A stretch of 38,834 bases of DNA from an uncultured Porphyromonadaceae bacterium (GTDB lineage Bacteria; Bacteroidota; Bacteroidia; Bacteroidales; Muribaculaceae). Shown in pieces: positions 469 through 23,969 of the stretch. The notes under the pieces are model-generated. The model was not told the origin of the DNA. It did not search any database and was given only the letters and a program-made list of their open reading frames with translations. Numbering within the stretch: the stretch's first letter is position 1; every line of letters begins with the position of its first letter. The stretch spans positions 1 to 38,834 of the forward strand of contig CAMWNH010000013.1 in NCBI GenBank assembly GCA_947175605.1, read 5' to 3'. A program made the position numbers and the translations under genes.

Positions 469-562
469 CCCTGTAGGGACGTGCCTTCGGCACGACAACA
501 ACGCCCCCCGGCAAGCAAAATTTTTGTCCAAGCCCCAAGCTTCAGCGCAGGGGAAAACCTCA
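469..562. repeat. Composite hairpin repeat, copy A
   Basis: The first half (469-506) reads CCCTGTAGGGACGTGCC then TTCGGCACG, forming a short stem around a TTC loop. The second half (about 520-555) contains TTTTTGTCCAAGCCCCAAGC. Both halves recur in the same order in copy B at 4808-4905, and the first half recurs at 5237-5274. Copy A lies directly 3' of the 152-residue gene on the minus strand and its tail touches that gene's stop codon. It resembles a REP-type element and could act as a 3'-end hairpin. Confidence 0.8.
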
Positions 563-1018
563 TCCCCATGGCTCAATGCTCGTCGGTCTTATTTCCCCGC
601 GCGCCAGCCTTATAAATCCCCCCACAGCCCGCTCCGCCAGCGCCTCGTTCGCCCGCGCAAGTTCCGGGTAGGCCGTCCCGTAGGCCATCGATAGCAACCT
701 CCGTTCCAGCGCCGTGCTCAGCTGCAACCTCATCGCCGGTCCATGCCTCTCCGCCTCCTCGCTCGTCAGCGTCAGGCTCAGCAATTCCGGATCCTCGTTG
801 GCCATATACGACGTCGGCGTAAAAGCGAAATCCCCTATATACCCGCAGATTTCCCCCATCAGCACTCCCCAGGCCGTCATGCATAGCCGTTTCAGAGCAT
901 TTCCCTGTTCCCGTCGCAGCAGAGCAGGGCGGCTCGTGCAATCCGTGCTCGCGCTCATCAGTGCCGCATCCGCATACACCCCCTGAAGCACCTGTGTTAT
1001 CGATAGTGTTATCTCCAT
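560..1018 (-). CDS. Hypothetical protein of capsid/portal block (152 aa)
   Basis: No family is recognised. The product starts at ATG 1018 (MEITLSITQVLQGVYADAAL) and is 152 residues, mostly alpha-helical in appearance, with no signal peptide or membrane segment. It begins 3 bases after the stop of the 140-residue gene and is the last gene of the capsid-like block, so the two are almost certainly co-transcribed from the promoter at 1505-1536. Its opening (M-x-ITLS followed by a helical stretch) resembles that of the 187-residue gene at 2858-3421, which hints that both could be small head-completion or adaptor-type proteins. That is inference from position and a weak N-terminal resemblance only. 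The end of the gene abuts the repeat copy A. Confidence 0.7.
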   Translation of the reverse strand: MEITLSITQVLQGVYADAALMSASTDCTSRPALLRREQGNALKRLCMTAWGVLMGEICGYIGDFAFTPTSYMANEDPELLSLTLTSEEAERHGPAMRLQLSTALERRLLSMAYGTAYPELARANEALAERAVGGFIRLARGEIRPTSIEPWG

Positions 1019-1021
1019 CGC

Positions 1022-1444
1022 TCACGCCCCCTTTCTCTCGCGCATGCCCTTCCTTCGGAAAGCCAGACACCTGTCCATTCGCTTTGCAATCAGCCGCCAC
1101 GCCGTCTCCCTCGACATATAGTAGCGGCTCGGACGCTTGAAACACAGCACGAAATTTATAGCCCGCTCCGCCTTCAGCCACGGACGCGCATTCAGCTCCC
1201 GGTCCACTTCCTCGCAGAATTCCTCCCAGAGTCCCGGGCGCAGCTTGTGGCCGCAGCGGTGAGCTTTGTACACATCCTGAGCGCGCTGCTGGCTCACGAA
1301 ATAGCGCGGGGGGCGCATCTCCAGCACTCGTGCCGAAAGCTCCCGCAGCTCCTCGTAGGTTCCTGCCCCGCCTTCGGTGTCAAGCAGCCTTTCGAAGGCC
1401 GCGATGTAAGCGTCGTTCCGACGCATTGTTTCTGTCTTGTACAT
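1022..1444 (-). CDS. Hypothetical protein of capsid/portal block (140 aa)
   Basis: The frame is open further upstream to 1567, but the extension would cover the promoter at 1505-1536 and the 3' end of the portal-like gene. The ATG at 1444 (MYKTETMRRNDAYIAAFERL) is therefore chosen, giving 140 residues. The protein is basic and helical, with RPPRYFVSQQRAQDVYKAH in the middle and a C-terminal part rich in Arg and Lys, so nucleic-acid contact is possible. No known family is recognised. The 26 bases upstream of the ATG closely match the leader of the capsid-like gene at 4754, including TAAACCT and GAACT immediately before ATG at identical spacing. It is followed 3 bases later by the 152-residue gene. 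Confidence 0.7.
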   Translation of the reverse strand: MYKTETMRRNDAYIAAFERLLDTEGGAGTYEELRELSARVLEMRPPRYFVSQQRAQDVYKAHRCGHKLRPGLWEEFCEEVDRELNARPWLKAERAINFVLCFKRPSRYYMSRETAWRLIAKRMDRCLAFRRKGMRERKGA

Positions 1445-1504
1445 AGTTCGATTTTTTAAGATAAGGTTTAAAAGAAAGAGTCCCGCCTTCCCCCTTTCCG
1501 CATG

Positions 1505-1536
1505 CAAAGATAATATGAAAATTGTATATATGCAAA
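1505..1536 (-). promoter_or_regulatory. Bacteroidota-type promoter inside the capsid-like block
   Basis: On the minus strand a -33 TTTG (complement of 1533-1536) is followed after exactly 20 bp by a -7 box TATCTTTG (complement of 1505-1512). This matches the Bacteroides consensus TTTG-N19/20-TAnnTTTG very well. It points at the 140-residue gene starting at 1444, giving a leader of roughly 55 bases. The -33 lies right at the end of the portal-like gene, so the last two genes of the block can be expressed separately. Confidence 0.8.
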
Positions 1537-1538
1537 TT

Positions 1539-2861
1539 TTATTGCAATTTATTTTGCAAAATTGCAATTATGCCCGCTTTCCTGTCCCGCAGTTCAAGGA
1601 AACTCCCGAATGTATCCAGCAGATCCGCAAGCGCTATCGACGCCGTCTCCACCCGCGCTCGGTAATTATCCTTTCCCACAGCGGCCGAAACGTTTCTGCC
1701 CATCAGCACATCGCTCACCCCCGTGCTGTTCTCGAACAGCTTCATTTGCAGCGTCAGCAATTGGCAGGCCCCGTCGGCCGATCCTCGCGTAGCCACCTGT
1801 TGCGGAAGCACCTTCCCTTCTCGCAGCGGAATCACGGCATCCGGGCTTGCCCAGCGCTGCGCCACCTCGTCAAGCCTCACATTGTCCGGAAGCTCGTTGA
1901 TCGGGAAGAGAAGCGCACCCTTCGCCGACGAGGCCATGATGTGGTCCGCTATGCTGATAAGCCTGTTGATGTACTTCTGATTCTCGATCAGACCCTCCAC
2001 AAAAGAGTGCACCTCACCGTCCGTCATCGGGTAGAATTTCACCACGAACGGATGGCCCCCGCCGCGGTAGGGTGAGGCAAAGCTGTCTATTCGTCTGCCG
2101 TCCGCTGCGAACACGCGGCAGCGCCAGCCGAAACTGTAGGTCCCTCCCTCTCGCCTTGACGCATCAAGCGTCCACACCTCTATCACGCGCATCTTTGCCG
2201 AGTCGCCCGGAAGGAAGAAATCCTCGCTCCCCGCAGCAGGCATTCCTAAAGCCTTCTCCGGAGCGTATGCCCCCGCCGAGACGCAGTCCGCGAAAACCTG
2301 CTCTAAGAAGCCGCATCGCTCGGCCGAGCCGTGTCCGTAGCGGCTCACAAGCTCCGGGAGTCCCATATCGTGCAACATCCCCACGAGCTCTATATCCGTT
2401 CCCCTCGGGTCCTGGAACACATTCACGAAAAAGCGCCGTGGATCCACATTGTCCACCCACACCCCCGTCCCGCCCTCGCGGCATTCGTTCGACAGCCGCT
2501 GAATGGCCGCGCCCGATATCAGAAACTCCTCGAGCATGCGGCTGTCGAGCTCCCCTAAAGCGTTGCGCCGGCTCATGGCGTCCTTATACTCCCCTTGTTC
2601 CGACGCCTGTGTGCGGAATCGCCCGATTATTGTCTTCACAAGCTGGCGTATCAGATTGTTGGTCAGTGGAGTGCGCCCCTGCCGCGCGAGTCGTTCACCG
2701 TCCGTAAGTCTCACGCCTCTGTAGTGCGACACACACTCGTCGCCCCATTGGTCCCCGTAGGTGAAGCGCTTGCAGCGCTCGCGCCTGAAGCGGAAGTCCG
2801 CCGCTCCGGTCCATGCTTCGCATGCGCGCTTCAGTATTGTCTTGTCTTTCTTCTCGCTCAT
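1539..2861 (-). CDS. Phage portal-like protein
   Basis: A 440-residue protein with the layout of a P22-like (dodecameric ring) portal. The N-terminal part has RCKRFTYGDQW (about 29-39) then NNLIRQLVKTIIGRFR (about 68-83); the middle has DNVDPRRFFVNVFQDPRG followed by ELVGMLHDM; the later part has FVEGLIENQKYINRLISIAD and a helix-rich C-terminus. These are the segments by which tailed-phage portals of Bacteroidota prophages are usually recognised. It is shorter than P22-type portals (about 600-700 residues), lacking the C-terminal barrel. The ATG at 2861 overlaps the TGA of the preceding gene as ATGA, indicating translational coupling. The frame is fully intact. Portal assignment is by pattern recognition and gene company, not a search; no terminase lies next to it, which is unusual for a functional phage. 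Confidence 0.65.
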   Translation of the reverse strand: MSEKKDKTILKRACEAWTGAADFRFRRERCKRFTYGDQWGDECVSHYRGVRLTDGERLARQGRTPLTNNLIRQLVKTIIGRFRTQASEQGEYKDAMSRRNALGELDSRMLEEFLISGAAIQRLSNECREGGTGVWVDNVDPRRFFVNVFQDPRGTDIELVGMLHDMGLPELVSRYGHGSAERCGFLEQVFADCVSAGAYAPEKALGMPAAGSEDFFLPGDSAKMRVIEVWTLDASRREGGTYSFGWRCRVFAADGRRIDSFASPYRGGGHPFVVKFYPMTDGEVHSFVEGLIENQKYINRLISIADHIMASSAKGALLFPINELPDNVRLDEVAQRWASPDAVIPLREGKVLPQQVATRGSADGACQLLTLQMKLFENSTGVSDVLMGRNVSAAVGKDNYRARVETASIALADLLDTFGSFLELRDRKAGIIAILQNKLQ

Positions 2862-3421
2862 AACATAAAATCAGTTTTCATTCTCTCGAAAATCCAGCTT
2901 AGTCCCGCCTCCTCCAGCGTGTATTTGTCAGGCCCCGGATCGCGCACCCCGCGAGCCATAGACACCGTCCTCGGGCTTCCGGCCGGGCTCACGACTATCG
3001 TGCGTCCGTCGCTCCCCGTCGCCGCTGCCGGATAGCGCGTTGTAGGCGCCGTGTATTGGTTGTCCGCACGCATTTTCAGTGCTTCCGCCTCCTCGGCGTC
3101 CTTCACATCAGCCGTCGTCTCCCAGCTCTCGAGTTTTATCTCGTACACTCGTACCACATCTGCCGGAAGCTCCACCAGGCCTGTGTTCGTCCCTAAGTAC
3201 GCCGCATCCTTCATCGTCGCTCCGAACTCTTCCGGCGCAGTCAGCTCCCGTGGGCCCGTCAGCAGAAGTTCCGTATAGATCCTGCGCAGTTGCTCCTCTA
3301 TCAGCGCGTTTATGTCCACTCCGTCCGTGGCCTCGATCGCGCAGTCCGAGCGAAGATGCTCGAAGCCCCCGGCAAGCCGGAAACGTTCGAGCATCTCGCC
3401 CTTTGAAAGTGTTATCTTCAT
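2858..3421 (-). CDS. Possible head-completion/adaptor protein (187 aa)
   Basis: The protein starts at ATG 3421 (MKITLSKGEMLERFRLAGGF) and is 187 residues. It is soluble, with a helical N-terminal half and a middle segment LVELPADVVRVYEIKLESW that looks like a small beta domain, then a Gly/Pro-rich region and a C-terminal helix. Lying between the capsid-like gene (46 bases upstream) and the portal-like gene (4-base overlap), it is in the place where tailed phages often encode head-tail connector proteins. No sequence family is recognised, so the role is positional inference only. Confidence 0.6.
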   Translation of the reverse strand: MKITLSKGEMLERFRLAGGFEHLRSDCAIEATDGVDINALIEEQLRRIYTELLLTGPRELTAPEEFGATMKDAAYLGTNTGLVELPADVVRVYEIKLESWETTADVKDAEEAEALKMRADNQYTAPTTRYPAAATGSDGRTIVVSPAGSPRTVSMARGVRDPGPDKYTLEEAGLSWIFERMKTDFML

Positions 3422-3467
3422 AATTTCGATAGTCCTTCAAGGGATTGCTTCATTCTCATCCTCCGCC

Positions 3468-4754
3468 TCACTCCTTGGCCTCGTGTGTGCCCTTCACGCG
3501 AAGGTGAGTCGCAGGATAGCGGAGCACAAGGCAGCTTGCCTCCGTCAGAACCACAGCGTCCGAGTTGCGTTGGCCGCTCTTGCGCAGGTCCAGTTTCTCG
3601 CAGTTGAAGGGGATGTGCACATACTTCGTCAGATAGTCCGGGTCCAGTATGAAGCCGTCCGTAGCATGACCGCACTGATCGAAGATTTCCGAGTGAAGCA
3701 CATACAGCGTACCGAAGTTCGATCGGATTTCGCGGAACTCGATGCCCCACTTTACCAGGCTCTCGCCACCCTGCACGGTCTTGCTGTACTCCACATTGCT
3801 CAGTGCCTCCATCAGCTCCGTGCCCGCCAGAAGGATCTTGCGCTTCGAGCCCGTACGGCCCACGAACGCATCGCTGCAGAGCTTCGTCAGCGCACGTTGG
3901 TCCAGCTTGTCAAGATTCACGCTTGTCTCCGTACCCGCCTGGGCCCAGATACCTCCCGTCAGATACACCTCCTGCTGCTTGTTGGCGTCGAAAAGCTTCG
4001 TCCGGCGTCCGAAAAGGAAGCTCTTCTCCATGCCCAGGCGCATATCTATGATTGCTGCCTCCTCCTGGTCCGAGAAGCTCCAGCCAAGCTCCTTGCGTGC
4101 TATCTTCATCAGCGTCGACTGCTCCACCTGCATCTTGAAGATCTGGCAATTGTTGTAGTCCTTCGCCGGCAGTGCCGAGAACTGAGCCGTCTGCACATCC
4201 AGTTCAGCCGCCGCGCGGCCCATGCGGATCAGCTTCGAGCCCTTCGCCAGCATCGGCATCGTGTGCACCGTCTGGCCTCCGCCCATACCCGTCGTCACGC
4301 TCTCCTTCGGGTTGGTCACCATCACGCGGTAAGTCTGAGGCTTCACCTTGCTCAGCACATACAGCACCGTCGCTTCCCCGTCTGCAGGCATCGCCAGCAG
4401 AGTTTCAGTCACATCCAACAGCCCGCTTTCGATTTCGATCTGCGTCGAGTAGCCGCCGCCCGCCTCCTCATCCAGAGTCTGGTCACCGCCCACGCCCTTC
4501 GCAAGCGTCACCTCCGTCGGGCGAGTATCCACCGATGCGAACTCTACGCACATACCGTCTGTATGGCGGCTCGCCGCGCAGCGGCTTAGCTGGTCAATAG
4601 GAGTCGACATCGGTCGCACCTTCACGATGCGTTGGTCTATTCCGTTCATCACAAGACCCGGAGCAGCCATATTTGCTGCCGTGGTCGTCAGAGCCTGCGA
4701 GGCAACATGCTTGCCCCCCGCCGCGCCTTCCACAAGATTTTCTTCAGTATTCAT
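3468..4754 (-). CDS. Major capsid protein-like (HK97-fold candidate)
   Basis: A 428-residue protein that resembles major capsid proteins of Bacteroidota prophages (SU10-like/DUF5309-like group). Supporting segments are GIDQRIVKVRPMSTPIDQLSR near residue 40-60, a central EEAAIIDMRLGMEKSFLFGRR, the segment GIWAQAGTETSVNLDKLDQR, and KILLAGTELMEALSNVEYSK, where such proteins carry the peptide-binding and axial domains. The Ala-rich N-terminus (first 30 residues) has no signal peptide, and no dedicated protease or scaffold gene is present. The start at ATG 4754 is preceded by an AT-rich leader closely matching that of the 140-residue gene. The frame is undamaged. The alternative is an encapsulin-like shell or another phage structural protein; the HK97 fold is inferred and would need structure prediction. 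Confidence 0.6.
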   Translation of the reverse strand: MNTEENLVEGAAGGKHVASQALTTTAANMAAPGLVMNGIDQRIVKVRPMSTPIDQLSRCAASRHTDGMCVEFASVDTRPTEVTLAKGVGGDQTLDEEAGGGYSTQIEIESGLLDVTETLLAMPADGEATVLYVLSKVKPQTYRVMVTNPKESVTTGMGGGQTVHTMPMLAKGSKLIRMGRAAAELDVQTAQFSALPAKDYNNCQIFKMQVEQSTLMKIARKELGWSFSDQEEAAIIDMRLGMEKSFLFGRRTKLFDANKQQEVYLTGGIWAQAGTETSVNLDKLDQRALTKLCSDAFVGRTGSKRKILLAGTELMEALSNVEYSKTVQGGESLVKWGIEFREIRSNFGTLYVLHSEIFDQCGHATDGFILDPDYLTKYVHIPFNCEKLDLRKSGQRNSDAVVLTEASCLVLRYPATHLRVKGTHEAKE

Positions 4755-4784
4755 AGTTCAAAATTAAATAATTAGGTTTAAAAA

Positions 4785-4910
4785 AATTTTTTGTTCAAGC
4801 CCCCCCTCCCTGTAGGAACGTGCCTTCGGCACGTCATCAACGCCCTCTGCCACAAAGGCTTTTTGTTGAAGCCCCAAGCTTTAGCGCCGGGGAATCCGGT
4901 GCCCATCGAA
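4785..4910. repeat. Composite hairpin repeat, copy B
   Basis: This copy sits between the 56-residue gene and the capsid-like gene. It has TTTTTTGTTCAAGCCCC (about 4789-4805), then the stem ACGTGCC-TTC-GGCACGT (centre about 4825), then TTTTTGTTGAAGCCCC followed by AAGCTTTAGCGC (4859-4887). The order and spacing match copy A at 469-562. It lies directly 3' of a stop codon on the minus strand, as copy A does. Confidence 0.78.
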
Positions 4911-4925
4911 AAAAGGCTTTCCCGC

Positions 4926-5096
4926 TCAATCCTCCCAAAAACTTTTCCTCGGTTGGAATAAGAAAAAAGGCAAAGCCTCATCCTCATCATCGGCAGCCTC
5001 GCGGACCGCCGTTTCAATAGCCTCCGAGCTGTAGAGCGCCTTATCGGCAGCCTCATTCTCCGCAGGCTCATAGGGTGGTGGAATAGTGTCTTTCAT
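4926..5096 (-). CDS. Small acidic protein leading the capsid-like block (56 aa)
   Basis: An ATG at 5096 opens a 56-residue frame (MKDTIPPPYEPAENEAADKA ... ending SFWED) that stops at TGA 4926. It is strongly acidic in its first 42 residues (runs such as EAADDEDEA) and ends in a short hydrophobic/basic tail. It is preceded by an A/T-rich leader and the -7 box at 5146-5153, and is the first gene of the block ahead of the capsid-like protein. Small acidic proteins in this place can be scaffold-like or decoys for basic capsid surfaces, but no family is recognised and the role is open. Confidence 0.6.
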   Translation of the reverse strand: MKDTIPPPYEPAENEAADKALYSSEAIETAVREAADDEDEALPFFLFQPRKSFWED

Positions 5097-5145: not shown

Positions 5146-5153
5146 CAAAATTA
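5146..5153 (-). promoter_or_regulatory. Putative -7 box of the capsid-like block
   Basis: The complement reads TAATTTTG, matching TAnnTTTG, about 50 bases before the ATG at 5096. A TTTGG lies further upstream, but the spacing (about 22-23 bp) is longer than the usual 19-20, so only the -7 element is claimed. Confidence 0.5.
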
Positions 5154-5236: not shown

Positions 5237-5274
5237 CCCTGTAGGGACGTGCCTTCGGCACGTCACCAACGCCC
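5237..5274. repeat. Hairpin repeat, copy C (first half only)
   Basis: The sequence CCCTGTAGGGACGTGCC-TTC-GGCACGTC then ACCAACGCC matches the first half of copies A and B. Stem GACGTGCC/GGCACGTC is perfect over 8 bp with a TTC loop. The AAGCCCCAAGCTT half is missing here. Confidence 0.8.
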
Positions 5275-14582: not shown

Positions 14583-17500
14583 CTATTCCGGCAAGTATGG
14601 CTCGGCATCCCATCCGCCTCCAAGTGCCTTGTATAGAAGGATTAAGGCCAGATATTCATCGCGTATAGCGTTCGAGAGGCCGGTTTCGGCATCGAAATAT
14701 CGTCTTTGGGCGTCGAGTACGTCGATATAGCCTATCGAGCCTGCTCTGTACTGCAGGTAAGCAAGCTCTACATAGCGGCGTGCAGCCTCGCGAAGCTCTC
14801 GACGCAGGATCGTTGTATTGCGCCGCTCGCGCATTGTCGTAGCCGCATCGCTTACGTCGCGGAAGGCATTGAGCACCGATTTCTCGTACGCGGCCTTAGC
14901 CTCGTCGTAGGCGGCCAGGCTGGCCTTGTATTTCCGTTTGTTCCTGCCGAAGTCAAATATGGTGCCTGTTATCGAGCCGATTGCGTAGGTCCATGGCGAG
15001 GCGAAGAAGCGCACGAAGCCGTCATCCTCAAAGCCTCCCGTGAAGGCCAGACGCAGTTTGGGGAAGCGGTCGGCATAGGCCACGCCTACGGCTGCAAGGG
15101 CCGAGCGCAGCGATTCCTCGGCTGCGCGCACGTCGGGGCGCCGTTCAAGGAGTGTCGAAGGCAGCCATTCGGGCAGTGCCGAAGGCAGATCCTGATCCAT
15201 GACGAGACGTCCGCGTTGTAGTTCTTCCTGTGGGAAACGGCCCATGAGCATGGTGATGGCGTTTTTGGCAGCAGCAATGCGTTGCTCCAGGTTCGGCACG
15301 AGTGAGGCCGCCGTCTGATATTCGACCTGTGCCTGACGGTACACGATTTCCGACGTCAGGCCGCCTTCGAAGCGCAGCTTTGCAATGCGCAGGGCCTCGG
15401 CTCGGGTTGTGAGCGTGCGTCGCACGATCGCAAGTTCGTTGTCCAGCGCCACCAGTGTGTAGTAGAGCGTAGCTGCATCGGCAATGAGGCTCATTCGCAG
15501 CGCACGCTCGTTCTCCTGCGAGGCACGGAAGTCTGCCGCGGCCTTTCGGCGTGCCCATGAAAGACCGCCCCAAAGGTCGGCTTCCCATGCCACGGTGAAT
15601 TTCAGGCCGCTTTCAGGCTCTACTTTGGTGTGGTCTCCGCGATTGTCGGTGGATTCTCGGTCCACATAGCCCTGTCCCGAGAGAATGGGCGTGAAGTTTG
15701 CGCCCGAGAGACCGTATAGTTCGCGCATCCGCTGCATGCGTGCGCGGGCTACCTCGAGATCGCGATTGTGTTCGAGTGTCTCGTTTATTATGGACACGAG
15801 CGATGGCTCGGAATAGAGCTGCCACCATTCCATGTCCGCCACGGTCATGGAGTCGCTGAATGTCACTCCCGCTATCTTGTCGGGCACACGCAGGTCGGAA
15901 GGCTGACAGCGGCGAACACCCGAGCATGAGCTCATCGTCAGACCGGACACGGCTATAAGGAGCGCGGCTCCTGCGTTCCGGGCTTTACGACGGGGATAGA
16001 GACGGAAGTTTCCACCGCCCCGCACCACCGAGCGCACAGCCACATAGAAGAAGGGCACGAATACGATGCCTACCGTGATGGCCACGAGCATGCCGAAGAA
16101 CACGCCCGTGCCTATATCGCGGCGAGCGGCCGCGCCCGGACCTGTGGCCACAAGCAGAGGCAGAAGACCCAGCATGAAGGCAAGCGAGGTCATGACAATC
16201 GGGCGGAAACGCAGGCGCGCAGCCTGCAAGGCTGCCTGGCGGGGTGTTTCGCCCGCGTCATCGGCTTCTTTTGCGAATTCCACAATGAGGATTGCATTCT
16301 TGGCCACGAGGCCAACGAGCATCACAAGGCCAATCTGGAAGTAAACGTTATTCTCGAGACCGGTCACGGCTATACCGAGATATGCACCCAGCAGGGCCAC
16401 GGGCAGCGATAGCACTACGGCCAGAGGCACGGTCCAGCTCTCATACAGCGCGGCCAGGAAGAGGAACACGAACACCAGCGCTAGTCCGAGCACCAGACCG
16501 GTGTTGCCCGACTGGTGTTTCTGCTGGTATGAGAGACCGCTCCATTCAATGCCGATATTGTCCGGCAGGTATTCGTCCGCAATTTCCTGAAGGGCCAGCA
16601 TGGCATCGCCGGTGGAATAGCCGTGTGCCGCTTCGCCGGAAATGGTTGCGGCGTTGAACATATTGAATCGGCCCACCGTGCCGGGTCCCGTTGTATAGTG
16701 GCTTGTGCCAAGCGATGTTACGGGCACCATGGCGCCTCCCGGACCGCGCACGAAGAAGAGGCCGAGGTTTTCCCTGCGGGCTCGGAATTCGGGCGAGGCC
16801 TGGATATAGACGCGGTAGATGCGGTTGAACATATTGAAGTCATTCACGTACACCGAGCCCGTGAAAGCCTTCATGGTCGAGAATATATCGCTTACGGGTA
16901 TTCCCTGCAGCTTGGCCTTGTCACGGTCCACGTCAAAGAACAGCTGAGGGATATCGGCCTGCATCGAGGATGAGAGCGATTCGAACTCGGGGCGTTCCGC
17001 TGCGCGGGCCATTATGGTGTCGATGGCGGCACGCAGGTCGTCGTAGCTTGCGTCGGCGCGTGCCTCGACTACCATTTCAAAGCCGCCCGACGTACCGAGT
17101 CCGGGGATGATGGCCGGCGAGAATAGATATACGTTGCTTTCGGGATAAGCCGAGAGCTCGGTGCGCAGGCGTTCGCGCACGGCGGCCAGCGAGCCGTTGC
17201 CGCGTTCTTCCCATGGCTTGAGGATGACGGTGAGCAGTGCGTGCGCCTGATTCGTGCCCACGCGAGGCGAGGATCCGGTGACGTTGAGCACATACTCGAC
17301 GTCGGGGTCGTTCTCGAGGAAGGCTATGGCGCGATCGGTCACGGCGCGTGTGCGCTCGATTGTGGCACCTTCGGGAAGCTCCAGCTCCACGGTGAAGTAG
17401 CCCTGATCCTCGGCCGTCATAAACGATTGGGGCATGATGCTGTTGAACACCCAGATGCCCACGAGCACCAGCCCGAAGGCCGCGATCATACGGCGCGGAT

Positions 17501-19103
17501 TCCGGAAGGTGCGTCCCACCATGCGGCAGTAGAATTCATTGCCGCGGCGAAGCCAGTAGTTGATCAGCCGGAAGAAGCGGGGCTTGGGCTTGTCCTTGCG
17601 GGAGGGCTTGAGCAGGGCCGCGCACATCACGGGCGAAAGCGTCAGCGCAACCACCGTCGATATTATCACGGACACGGCGATCGTCACCGTGAACTGCCGG
17701 TAGAGCTGTCCTGTTATGCCCGGCAGGAAACTTACGGGCACGAACACGGCGCAAAGCACGAGACTCATGGCTATAAGCGCGGAGCTCAGTCCGCCCATGG
17801 CTTCACGGGTGGCCTCCTTGGGGCTTATGCGGCGCGACTCCATTATACGGTCCACGTTCTCAACCACCACAATGGCATCGTCCACTACGATACCGATGGC
17901 AAGGATCAGCCCCAGAAGCGTGAGCATATTCAGCGAGAAGCCGAAGATGAGCATGGCGCCGAAGGTGCCGATAAGGGATATGGGCACGGCAATGACCGGG
18001 ATGAGCGTGGCGCGCCAGTTCTGCAGCGACAGGAACACCACGAGGATCACCAGCAGAAGTGCCTCGAAGAAAGTGCGGTAGACATGATGTATCGACTCGG
18101 AAATGTAGGTCGTCATGTCGAAGGGAATTGCGAATGAAAGACCCTCCGGCAGCGTGGCCTCGATTTCTTTCAGGAGTTTCTTCACCTCTGCGGCCACATC
18201 CAGGGCGTTGGCCCCCGGGAGCATCGAAATTTCCATGATGGCTGCGTTGCCGCCGTTGATGCCGCTCTCGGTCGAGTAGCTCTGGGCCTCGAGACGCACT
18301 TCCGCCACATCACGCAGGCGCAACAGCGAGCCGTCCTTATTGGCGCGGAGAACAATGTCCTCGAACTCGCCCACGGTGGAAAGTCGGCCGCGCGCAATGA
18401 TGGGTACGGTCAGGTCCACGCCTTCCATCGGCGCCTGTCCGAGGACGCCCGCAGCCGATTCGCGGTTCTGGTCCTTTAGCGCGCTCTGGATATCGCTGAC
18501 GGTTATGCCCATGTCGGCCAGTTTGTCCGGAGCCACATGGATGAGCATGGCGTAATAGCGGGAGCCGACGTTCGAAACGCCGCCCACGCCCGGCACGCGA
18601 CGCACCAGGTCAACGACGTTCAGCGTGGCATAGTTGCTGAGATATATCTCGTCGTATTTTGTGTCATTGCTTTGCAGCGCCACGGTCATGAGCTTCGCGG
18701 CTGTGGTCTTCTGCACCGTGATTCCGTTCTGAACCACTTCGGCCGGCAGGCGCGCCTCGGCCTGCTTCACGCGGTTCTGGATGTCCACGGCCGCAAGTTC
18801 GGGATCGACGCCTATATCGAAAGTCACAGTGGCGTTGAAGCCTCCGGAGTTGGAGCTCGACGAGTTCATGTAGATCATGCCCGGAGTGCCGTTCAGCACC
18901 TGTTCGATGGGCGTAGCCACAGCCTGGGTCACGGTCATGGCGTCCGCGCCCGGATAGGAGGCCGATACGCTCACAACGGGCGGCACGATGTCGGGATATT
19001 GGTCCACGGGCAGCATCGTCAGGCCTATGCCGCCGATAATCGTGATTACGATAGATATTACTACCGAAAAGACGGGGTGGTCAAGGAAGAAATTTTTTTT
19101 CAT
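14583..19103 (-). CDS. RND multidrug efflux pump fused to NodT/TolC-like outer-membrane factor
   Basis: One uninterrupted frame of 1506 residues. Residues 1 to about 1035 are a full HAE1/AcrB-type proton-driven pump: N-terminal TM after MKKNFFLDHPVFSVVISIVI, PVDQYPDIVPPVV, the TM4 proton-relay pair in AIGIVVDDAIVVVENV, periplasmic docking domain with EDQGYFTVELELPEGAT, and TM10 VGLVAKNAILIVEFAKE with the relay Lys. Residues about 1060-1506 are a complete outer-membrane factor of the NodT lipoprotein type (VPDKIAGVTFSDS, WWQLYSEPSL, LIADAATLYYTLVALDNEL, ERRPDVRAAEESLRSA, YRAGSIGYIDVLDAQR). At the joint is a full lipoprotein signal: basic YPRRKARN, hydrophobic AGAALLIAVSG, lipobox LTMSSC with Cys at residue 1060. 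It overlaps the adaptor gene by 4 bases (ATGA). Release of the second part by signal peptidase II is inference. Confidence 0.93.
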   Translation of the reverse strand: MKKNFFLDHPVFSVVISIVITIIGGIGLTMLPVDQYPDIVPPVVSVSASYPGADAMTVTQAVATPIEQVLNGTPGMIYMNSSSSNSGGFNATVTFDIGVDPELAAVDIQNRVKQAEARLPAEVVQNGITVQKTTAAKLMTVALQSNDTKYDEIYLSNYATLNVVDLVRRVPGVGGVSNVGSRYYAMLIHVAPDKLADMGITVSDIQSALKDQNRESAAGVLGQAPMEGVDLTVPIIARGRLSTVGEFEDIVLRANKDGSLLRLRDVAEVRLEAQSYSTESGINGGNAAIMEISMLPGANALDVAAEVKKLLKEIEATLPEGLSFAIPFDMTTYISESIHHVYRTFFEALLLVILVVFLSLQNWRATLIPVIAVPISLIGTFGAMLIFGFSLNMLTLLGLILAIGIVVDDAIVVVENVDRIMESRRISPKEATREAMGGLSSALIAMSLVLCAVFVPVSFLPGITGQLYRQFTVTIAVSVIISTVVALTLSPVMCAALLKPSRKDKPKPRFFRLINYWLRRGNEFYCRMVGRTFRNPRRMIAAFGLVLVGIWVFNSIMPQSFMTAEDQGYFTVELELPEGATIERTRAVTDRAIAFLENDPDVEYVLNVTGSSPRVGTNQAHALLTVILKPWEERGNGSLAAVRERLRTELSAYPESNVYLFSPAIIPGLGTSGGFEMVVEARADASYDDLRAAIDTIMARAAERPEFESLSSSMQADIPQLFFDVDRDKAKLQGIPVSDIFSTMKAFTGSVYVNDFNMFNRIYRVYIQASPEFRARRENLGLFFVRGPGGAMVPVTSLGTSHYTTGPGTVGRFNMFNAATISGEAAHGYSTGDAMLALQEIADEYLPDNIGIEWSGLSYQQKHQSGNTGLVLGLALVFVFLFLAALYESWTVPLAVVLSLPVALLGAYLGIAVTGLENNVYFQIGLVMLVGLVAKNAILIVEFAKEADDAGETPRQAALQAARLRFRPIVMTSLAFMLGLLPLLVATGPGAAARRDIGTGVFFGMLVAITVGIVFVPFFYVAVRSVVRGGGNFRLYPRRKARNAGAALLIAVSGLTMSSCSGVRRCQPSDLRVPDKIAGVTFSDSMTVADMEWWQLYSEPSLVSIINETLEHNRDLEVARARMQRMRELYGLSGANFTPILSGQGYVDRESTDNRGDHTKVEPESGLKFTVAWEADLWGGLSWARRKAAADFRASQENERALRMSLIADAATLYYTLVALDNELAIVRRTLTTRAEALRIAKLRFEGGLTSEIVYRQAQVEYQTAASLVPNLEQRIAAAKNAITMLMGRFPQEELQRGRLVMDQDLPSALPEWLPSTLLERRPDVRAAEESLRSALAAVGVAYADRFPKLRLAFTGGFEDDGFVRFFASPWTYAIGSITGTIFDFGRNKRKYKASLAAYDEAKAAYEKSVLNAFRDVSDAATTMRERRNTTILRRELREAARRYVELAYLQYRAGSIGYIDVLDAQRRYFDAETGLSNAIRDEYLALILLYKALGGGWDAEPYLPE

Positions 19104-22015: not shown

Positions 22016-22594
22016 TTAAATTTTACATAATGGTATTTGGAGAAAAGATGCGGTGGCGATAAGAACTGTGTTATAGCCAAGAACATGTATTCCTTTCTCC
22101 TTCATCTTAAGCCCATAATCCTGACTGAGAGTGAAGGCTCCGAATGGAGCTTTATCGCTATGCTCAGGTATGGAGAAGGCAAAATATACACGTTTTTGAG
22201 TTCGGGAAGTGAGATTCAATTTTTCGAGCTTGCATAGGGTTTCCTCCATTTGAGAACAAGCTTTGATTGTATAGTCTTCGATATTATGTGCTTCGCAATA
22301 CTTGGTTTCTAACATTAGGATCCAAGTCTTTTTTGCCTCGGAAAGAGATGAAAACACACATTCGCAGTTCTCAATACCTTTGATGAAGGCTGGATATTTT
22401 TCAAGATTTACAGCCAGATATGGTAAATTTTGATCAGAGATCTTTTTTTTGAGATGAAAGTAATCTATATCGTCAAAGGGACTTGTGGAAATTTCTACTC
22501 CACGGGCATTTCCCGTTGAGTTCGTATAATCAGCCACATAGCAATCGCAGTTTAATATTGCAGAATTTCTAAAATAGTTTATCATCTGACTCAT
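22016..22594 (-). CDS. ATPase partner protein, PD-(D/E)XK nuclease-like pattern
   Basis: A 192-residue protein of no recognised named family. It is translationally coupled to the ATPase gene (ATGA at 22591-22594). Visible in it is an order of residues like the core of PD-(D/E)XK nucleases: strand with E78 in ENCECVFSS, then hydrophobic strand WILMLETKYC carrying E96-T97-K98, then a helix IKACSQMEETLCKLE with Gln115 at the place where such enzymes often have a Gln. The usual motif-II Asp is a Glu here. The C-terminal third (RVYFAFSIPEH ... HVLGYNTVLI) is beta-rich. The protein is Cys-rich and soluble. The nuclease reading is inference from pattern only; an alternative is a non-enzymatic sensor subunit. 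The base composition is visibly AT-richer than the surrounding genes. Confidence 0.6.
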   Translation of the reverse strand: MSQMINYFRNSAILNCDCYVADYTNSTGNARGVEISTSPFDDIDYFHLKKKISDQNLPYLAVNLEKYPAFIKGIENCECVFSSLSEAKKTWILMLETKYCEAHNIEDYTIKACSQMEETLCKLEKLNLTSRTQKRVYFAFSIPEHSDKAPFGAFTLSQDYGLKMKEKGIHVLGYNTVLIATASFLQIPLCKI

Positions 22595-23916
22595 TCAATA
22601 ACATTCAAGAGATTGGTGAAGTCAGCCATTACGTTGTGCATGACACGATCGAAGTAATTTCCACGTACAAGACCTCGTTCATCCTGAATACACTTTACCG
22701 AAACGTCGCCATGTCCTCCCAGTTCCCATACGGAGACGATTTCAGGATTTAACCAAGCGTCTTTAGGTATATTGGCAATATCTTCAAGGCCTTCGGATGA
22801 ATCATGGGATGCCATATGTGCGAGCATACAGTTATTGAAGGCATACAGAACATAAGGGCTATGGGTTGTGATAACTAAAGTGTCTCGTAAATTCCGATGT
22901 GAGACTTTAGATAAGATGTAATAAACAAGTTTTACCTGAGTCTCTGGAAACAGATTTTGCTCCGGTTCCTCAATTACTAAATTTGTTGATGTAGGATGAG
23001 TAATTTTGTAGTTGTATAGGAGACCTTGATACATGGCCCTTAATATAGAAGAATACTGTTTGTTCAGTTCGTCGTATTCGACGTCTCCTCGTTTGAAGTC
23101 CTTCATGACATGAATGAACTTCTCCATTTCTTCAGATTTTTCTAATACATTCTCGAGTTTGGACAAGCCGTCTTGATCGAGATTGTTGAATAACTCTTCA
23201 GAATATTTATGCAACATCATGTCGCGATATTGCTTACGGTTTTCTGCGGAGCGATTTTCCTCATTATTGTAAATCCATTTCGTAAGATAGTCGATACACA
23301 CGCATAATGGTGTTACGGATTGAAGTCCGCTGGAGGCCTGACTGAAACGAATATCAAGACCATTCTCAAGATGAATCATGTCTGTGGAGTCCGAAGCGCT
23401 GAAGAAGTAGCTGTCTCCGAGATTCAGTAGGCCGAGTTCTTCATCACGTGTATATTTTGAACGGATTTCCTGCCAGTCATCAATGAATTCAAGCAAATAG
23501 TTATAAGGCATTTTTAAGGAAAATATGCCGGGAAGAGCAAGCATATTGCGCTCGGACGGCAAATATGCATTTTTGCTCAATTCTGCCTTGTGGAAAGTCT
23601 CTGTTTTTTTTACACTGAATTCTTTTCCGCTGATATGAAATTCAACGGCCGAACCAATGTAGTCAAGGCAAGAATTTTCGGTGAAATAGCCTTCGAGATT
23701 ATGGTATACGATAAGATTCTGATCGATATAATTGCGATCAATGTGACTCGTCCCTTGTTTTAACACGCAATCTTTTTCCATCCAATTGCAGAAACTGATC
23801 AATTTTGCAATCGTACTCTTACCGATACTTTGAGGGCCAATGAAAATATTGATTCTATTGAGTTCAATATCCACATTTTTAAGAGAGCCTATATTCTTTA
23901 GAGAAAGTTTTGCCAT
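22591..23916 (-). CDS. AAA/ABC-type ATPase of a two-gene candidate defence locus
   Basis: A 441-residue ATPase of the AAA_21/OLD-like type. ATG 23916 (MAKLSLKNIGSLKNVDIELN) is the start; the upstream extension to 23940 overlaps the -7 box. Walker A is GPQSIGKST (G27-T35), an ABC-signature-like SQASSGLQSV lies near residue 195-205, Walker B is NLVIEEPEQNLFP (about 312-324, with E316/E317), and the switch His is in ITTHSPYVLY (H352). Between them is a helical insert with EKSEEMEKFIHVMKDF, probably a coiled coil. No TOPRIM domain is seen after the ATPase core, so it is not a full OLD nuclease. ATPases of this type are the energy-using subunits of several anti-phage systems (Septu, retron and PARIS-like effectors). 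Composition is AT-rich and the two genes have their own promoter. Confidence 0.85.
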   Translation of the reverse strand: MAKLSLKNIGSLKNVDIELNRINIFIGPQSIGKSTIAKLISFCNWMEKDCVLKQGTSHIDRNYIDQNLIVYHNLEGYFTENSCLDYIGSAVEFHISGKEFSVKKTETFHKAELSKNAYLPSERNMLALPGIFSLKMPYNYLLEFIDDWQEIRSKYTRDEELGLLNLGDSYFFSASDSTDMIHLENGLDIRFSQASSGLQSVTPLCVCIDYLTKWIYNNEENRSAENRKQYRDMMLHKYSEELFNNLDQDGLSKLENVLEKSEEMEKFIHVMKDFKRGDVEYDELNKQYSSILRAMYQGLLYNYKITHPTSTNLVIEEPEQNLFPETQVKLVYYILSKVSHRNLRDTLVITTHSPYVLYAFNNCMLAHMASHDSSEGLEDIANIPKDAWLNPEIVSVWELGGHGDVSVKCIQDERGLVRGNYFDRVMHNVMADFTNLLNVIE

Positions 23917-23937
23917 GCGTGTGTTTGGATTATAATG

Positions 23938-23969
23938 CAAATATACACAAAAATAACGGATTCGCCAAA
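23938..23969 (-). promoter_or_regulatory. Promoter of the ATPase/partner operon
   Basis: On the minus strand TTTG (complement of 23966-23969), 20 bp spacer, TATATTTG (complement of 23938-23945). This is a full-consensus Bacteroidota promoter, 21 bases before the ATG at 23916, and it excludes the upstream start at 23940. Confidence 0.82.

Follow-up and report, generated by a model that had tools for sequence, protein, structure and literature searches.

The 38,834-nucleotide stretch analysed here, called the window below, is contig CAMWNH010000013.1 (positions 1 to 38,834, forward strand) of an uncultured Porphyromonadaceae bacterium (GenBank assembly GCA_947175605.1), placed by GTDB in the Muribaculaceae. 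Between gapA and a DUF1573 gene it carries a module of six undamaged minus-strand frames (560-5096), each starting with ATG. A first-pass annotation, made from the letters alone, had read these as six intact genes, two of them capsid-like and portal-like; the six frames were confirmed, and they are not chance open reading frames (ORFs), because the gene order recurs among the 37 loci that we compared (36 relatives and the window). Judged by its sequence matches, the module is a set of SU10/crAss-like podovirus head genes with two small proteins that have phage relatives. Its features are as follows.

4926-5096, minus strand: acidic protein of 56 aa, probably a scaffold in shortened form (family alignment; C-terminal R-x-S-F-W-[DE] end)
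3468-4754, minus strand: major capsid protein (MCP), SU10/HK97 type, 428 aa (Pfam, PHROGs and PDB profile matches)
2858-3421, minus strand: p187, head-to-tail adaptor of podovirus type, 187 aa (adaptor fold)
1539-2861, minus strand: portal, P22/GP4 type, without the C-terminal part, 440 aa (Pfam, PHROGs, PDB)
1505-1536, minus strand: match to the Bacteroidota-type -33/-7 promoter, TTTG-N20-TATCTTTG, upstream of p140
1022-1444, minus strand: p140, helical, possible terminase partner, 140 aa (hhalign, AlphaFold)
560-1018, minus strand: p152, possible head-tail or tail component, 152 aa (hhalign, gene order)

The portal and p187 genes share 4 bases, and the remaining gaps measure 3, 46, 94 and 171 bases. 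Profile searches bore out the capsid and portal identities: the MCP matched Pfam SU10_MCP (4.6e-45) and phrog_26635 (4.4e-76), and its profile matched PDB 9in6, a major capsid protein (8e-14), while the portal matched Pfam P22_portal (7e-14), phrog_156 (8e-34) and PDB 8jov (6e-8). The reversed order of portal and capsid with respect to phages is likewise real. The best phrog_156 stretch of the portal stops at position 445 of 681; portals measure 423-491 aa in 36 intact Muribaculaceae copies and 619-709 aa in the 12 loci that were mapped in related families, in prophages and in phages. p187 has the podovirus adaptor fold. In its family alignment, the 56-aa protein has a GRNE motif and ends in W[DE]; the window copy carries a worn form of the motif and is not detected by the family profile, and a homologue is present in the closest relative (DNA translated and compared by eye). 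Although the direct profile-profile match between this family and the phage scaffold is weak (prob 12.7), both profiles match the same ORFs in intermediate genomes, mostly at 1e-3 to 1e-8 for the 56-aa family and 1e-7 to 1e-11 for the phage scaffold.

For the two small proteins, p140 matched the phage family cl20 (hhalign prob 98, E 1e-14), whose gene is located near that of the large terminase (TerL), and its AlphaFold model (pLDDT 94.4) consists of two three-helix halves, with no convincing match in the PDB; p140 is a possible terminase partner. p152 matched gp24 of phage BS-TP4 (prob 86), encoded two genes from the ~900-aa structural gene of that phage, and may be a head-tail or tail component.

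The first-pass annotation had found no terminase or other phage gene beside the module, and had taken it to stand alone. In the window, our scan, which covered most long ORFs and not every short one, indeed recognised no further phage gene, no integrase and no linked replication or integration gene (relatives were not searched for integrases). The flanking genes include, besides gapA and the DUF1573 gene, recA, an AcrB pump and secG. However, the absence of a terminase holds for the window only, because an intact TerL sits on another contig of the same genome, C36 (E 1.9e-201 against a profile from relatives and phages; 4.6e-19 against the phrog_2 terminase). Its frame overlaps the end of another gene, which encodes an 803-aa relative of the ~900-aa phage structural protein, so that the module does not stand alone; the next neighbours on C36 are large surface-type proteins with MAM and CARDB domains. 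The Walker and nuclease catalytic residues are intact in all 30 Muribaculaceae TerL sequences compared, with one T-to-S change.

We then looked at how widely the set is kept. Among 198 Muribaculaceae genomes, profiles matched the portal in 186, the MCP in 182 and TerL in 181, each in 29 of 30 genera, although some of these matches may be prophage copies. Cross-counting the three tables gives all three genes in 170 genomes, at least one in 193 and none in five, some of which are incomplete; in a chosen set of 30 genomes, TerL and MCP were each present in 30. The relatives that the portal profile found and that carry names are mostly Muribaculaceae or "Porphyromonadaceae/Bacteroidales" metagenome-assembled genomes (best 80 of 454). 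Three of the matches listed are titled Lachnoclostridium, Paenibacillus and Clostridiales (L170, L171 and L173) and have portals of the Muribaculaceae type, so that their labels are doubtful. The genomes with weak MCP matches are G102, G168 and G176 (genus g1) and seven of genus g30, with divergent, lost or replaced copies.

Depending on the genome, the set occupies one, two or more loci. The order MCP-p187-portal occurs in 23 of the 37 loci, followed by p140 in 16 and p152 in 15, and all six genes were found by profile in seven. At one end, G097 holds all eight genes on one strand within about 10 kb; at the other, the portal lies alone and the MCP elsewhere in eight genomes (genera g4, g17, g21, g23, g25 and g27), about 0.53 Mb apart on the closed chromosome G173. 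In genus g6 the MCP is apart from p187-portal-p140-p152. Only a few neighbour genes were named for the relatives; those sampled, from a handful of loci, are cellular (sulfate permease, AraC regulator, surface proteins, ion channel, suf, infB), and in two relatives they comprise sulfate permease, DUF6377, AraC regulator and outer-membrane protein genes, with one of five unmatched. Five contigs filed as viral in IMG/VR (L478-L482) have portals inside the Muribaculaceae group and some carry module genes in order, so that they are probably chromosome fragments; on two of them, L478 and L480, seven of the eight genes lie in the order of G097, cut by contig ends.

Outside the family, 34 of 393 genomes of the order gave a portal match. 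Of the 28 that are not Muribaculaceae, 24 fall in six families (f22, f28, f60, f68, f88 and f109). Eight mapped loci of these families encode portals of 619-709 aa; their surroundings, in which most neighbours are unnamed, showed no phage block. Two further mapped loci, from f20 and f23, belong to prophages. In f28, f60 and f68 the portal adjoins the structural gene and the same rimP-nusA-infB-suf genes (named in one genome). A search of 11 genomes from the six families detected the MCP in every one, away from the portal; the two genes lie about 246 kb apart on the closed chromosome G486 and 47 kb apart on G453. Across the phylum (395 genomes sampled), a strong MCP match was given only by the window's own genome, the next being 2.5e-28.

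The trees and substitution rates show that the genes are inherited mainly vertically and kept by purifying selection. In the rpoB tree, Muribaculaceae group with the sampled carriers of five of these families (f22, f28, f60, f68 and f109) in a single clade (SH-aLRT 97), and one change is enough to explain carrier status (16 non-carriers sampled). In the portal tree, 36 Muribaculaceae portals and the five IMG/VR contigs form one group (support 100), apart from 42 phage rows and nine carrier rows, and the first split within the family is identical to that in the rpoB tree; prophage G505 is a long unplaced branch. Support for phages, carriers and the main Muribaculaceae group is 86, 99 and 97 in the TerL tree and 84, 100 and 94 in the MCP tree. 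In Mantel tests over 25 genomes, distances correlate moderately with those of rpoB, at 0.53 for the portal and 0.46 for TerL (each 0 of 5000 shuffles as high) and at 0.28, the lowest value, for the MCP (17 of 5000). Among the listed close pairs, dN/dS was 0.02-0.15 for the MCP, 0.03-0.19 for the portal, 0.09-0.26 for p187, 0.03-0.19 for p140, 0.07-0.32 for p152 and 0.17-0.37 for TerL in seven of eight pairs (the eighth saturated), ratios that are rough because dS exceeds 1 or is saturated in many pairs. These values agree with the earlier view that selection keeps the frames, and a domesticated role resembling a gene transfer agent (GTA) is, as that annotation proposed, better supported than recent prophage debris. 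It had also held that finding the same genes next to terminase and tail genes in ordinary prophages would speak against this. That objection applies by half: relatives do occur in true phages and prophages, but the Muribaculaceae portals and TerL stand apart from those of phages.

Taken together, we consider it likely that the module serves as head-morphogenesis operon in a podovirus-derived, chromosome-inherited GTA-like element. On the evidence of the genes, the set fits a GTA better than any rival considered, because it is tamed, mainly vertical and dispersed, its motor and portal are intact and no linked mobility gene was seen in the window. Indeed, head and packaging genes of tailed-phage origin (MCP, portal, adaptor and TerL) lie in the chromosome, with a catalytically intact motor. 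We claim membership only as "GTA-like", because the packaging of host DNA, release and delivery, like particle assembly, are steps that we infer. The acidic 56-aa protein would scaffold the MCP around the portal ring; TerL, encoded with the ~800-aa virion protein on the other contig, would dock on the portal and pump chromosomal DNA in, perhaps assisted by p140. The head-to-tail adaptor p187 would then seal the vertex, a short tail would be formed by the ~800-aa protein together with p152, and lysis of some cells would release particles that deliver host DNA to kin. As nearly every sampled Muribaculaceae species keeps genes of the set, these bacteria may make virus-like particles carrying bacterial DNA. 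As to its origin, we lean towards descent from a podovirus that was tamed in an ancestor shared by Muribaculaceae and five or more further Bacteroidales families, vertical inheritance and dispersal of the genes since then, loss of the inner C-terminal part of the Muribaculaceae portal, and a re-joining of head genes in one subclade into the operon of the window. Since portal and MCP occupy different loci in related families, the cluster may have been put together later from scattered genes.

Several observations weigh against the GTA-like reading, besides the moderate correlations and rough ratios given above. Genes for tail fibres, receptor binding, lysis or regulation were not identified, although no genome-wide search was made for them, and an ejection-protein profile from related families gave partial matches in five of 41 genomes. 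The portal is without the C-terminal region of its phage relatives, the ~800-aa protein received no function from Pfam or PHROGs, p140 and p152 stand behind the portal in less than half of the loci, and TerS is unproven. The MCP match is strong in 172 of the 198 genomes and weak in ten (1.3e-11 to 6.9e-17, genera g1 and g30), so that the set has been lost or replaced in places. The highest TerL matches cover the whole profile with longer frames and may be true prophages, and co-retention is therefore somewhat overcounted. Some copies contain stops; in a congener, G052, the portal is split by a frame change (L063, 9166-10451) and no TerL match was found, so that the system seems to decay in places.

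Part of this evidence would suit a domesticated particle with another job, such as PBSX-like killing of relatives or interference with incoming phages, in which DNA is packaged and not delivered: no receptor-binding or fibre gene was seen in the mapped loci, the ejection family is rare and the portal is altered. We regard this as unlikely, since TerL, portal and adaptor are all kept and neither MCP nor portal matched anything in PADLOC. The scattered genes, the occasional frameshifts and stops and the shortened scaffold and portal could also be those of an old prophage decaying without function, which is very improbable given the low dN/dS in the measured close pairs, the invariant catalytic residues of TerL and the presence of the three main genes together in most of the genomes. 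Slightly less probable again is a satellite that depends on a helper and brings capsid genes of its own, as capsid-forming PICIs do; gene number is small and no lysis module was seen, but inheritance is mainly vertical, no integrase was recognised in the window and the genes are far apart on closed chromosomes. The least credible is a cellular shell or nanocompartment built from the MCP, for which an HK97-type protein in a cellular setting could speak, because a shell needs none of the co-retained portal, adaptor and catalytically intact TerL.

Three established classes were also compared with the locus. An ordinary prophage has contiguous replication, structural, lysis and integration genes, and here cellular genes flank the module with TerL on another contig; an encapsulin nanocompartment has a cargo enzyme and no portal or terminase, and here the portal lies beside the MCP in the 23 loci and TerL in the same genomes; a capsid-forming satellite is an integrase-borne island using helper tails, which neither the window scans nor the mainly vertical inheritance match.

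RcGTA and other alphaproteobacterial GTAs are tamed phage genes, inherited vertically, with a small gene set. Their genes are spread over several loci, as in Muribaculaceae, according to PMC11841831. The FpGTA of Faecalibacterium (PMC12946183) shares a gut bacterium as host, two separate operons, TerL, portal, scaffold, MCP and a podovirus-like description. It differs in phylum, in that particles with ~9-kb DNA were seen whereas the Muribaculaceae set is known from genes alone, and in the fibre and lysis genes of its second operon, not shown for Muribaculaceae. No GTA-like system of this kind in Muribaculaceae was found in the literature searched.

The nearest annotated viral homologues are the Bacteroides phages BF1-TP2, BKO1-TP3 and BS-TP4 and related IMG/VR contigs (MCP 34-38% and portal ~31% identity over 91-96%). 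Two of the phages were mapped and have relatives of TerL, p187 and p140, BS-TP4 also the ~900-aa gene. They differ in their 64-68 kb genomes and full portal, and in standing apart from Muribaculaceae in the portal and TerL trees. Their "tail spike protein" annotations (BS-TP4 and BF1-TP2; L031 20340-22436 and L032 20118-22145) fall in the terminase family, and the record notes also mention terminase. The podovirus heads and necks of SU10, crAss001 and GP4 have the MCP family, portal and adaptor fold in common with the set, but these phages form whole, infectious virions and have both tail fibres and replication genes.

If the GTA-like reading is right, a standing route of gene flow would run across nearly the whole Muribaculaceae, one that prophage finders may miss; one more phylum would join those with known GTAs, and the scattered, partly joined and fully joined loci would form a natural series for studying how such elements arise and persist. 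Muribaculaceae are major mouse-gut bacteria, the top family by abundance in the specific-pathogen-free mice of PMC10892684. According to PMC10197239, neither VirSorter2 nor VIBRANT detected a prophage in Muribaculum intestinale; whether that strain carries the set was not checked here.

The composition of the module was described earlier as host-like. GC and GC3 do equal those of 19 flanking ORFs (0.592 against 0.593 and 0.717 against 0.719), but host-like codon use is only weakly true, because its correlation of 0.859 lies at the lowest edge of the control range (0.857-0.991). Of the Bacteroidota-type promoters proposed, one complete -33/-7 match stands before p140 (the whole window has 4 against 0.18 expected), and elsewhere boxes resembling the -7 element lie at 5146 and 4759. 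The window also contains three copies of a REP-like palindromic repeat (GTGCCGAAGGCACGT and flanks), at 479-493, 4818-4832 and 5247-5261 (0.01 expected), always in gaps, at the module edges or inside them. Further along, a low-GC gene pair (about 0.38-0.39) at 22016-23940 encodes an AAA_15 ATPase matching PADLOC PDC-M29A (1.7e-55) and a 192-aa partner that has no match, perhaps a defence system. At 14583-19103, a 1506-aa ORF fuses an AcrB-type pump with an outer-membrane efflux domain, an arrangement that seems unusual.

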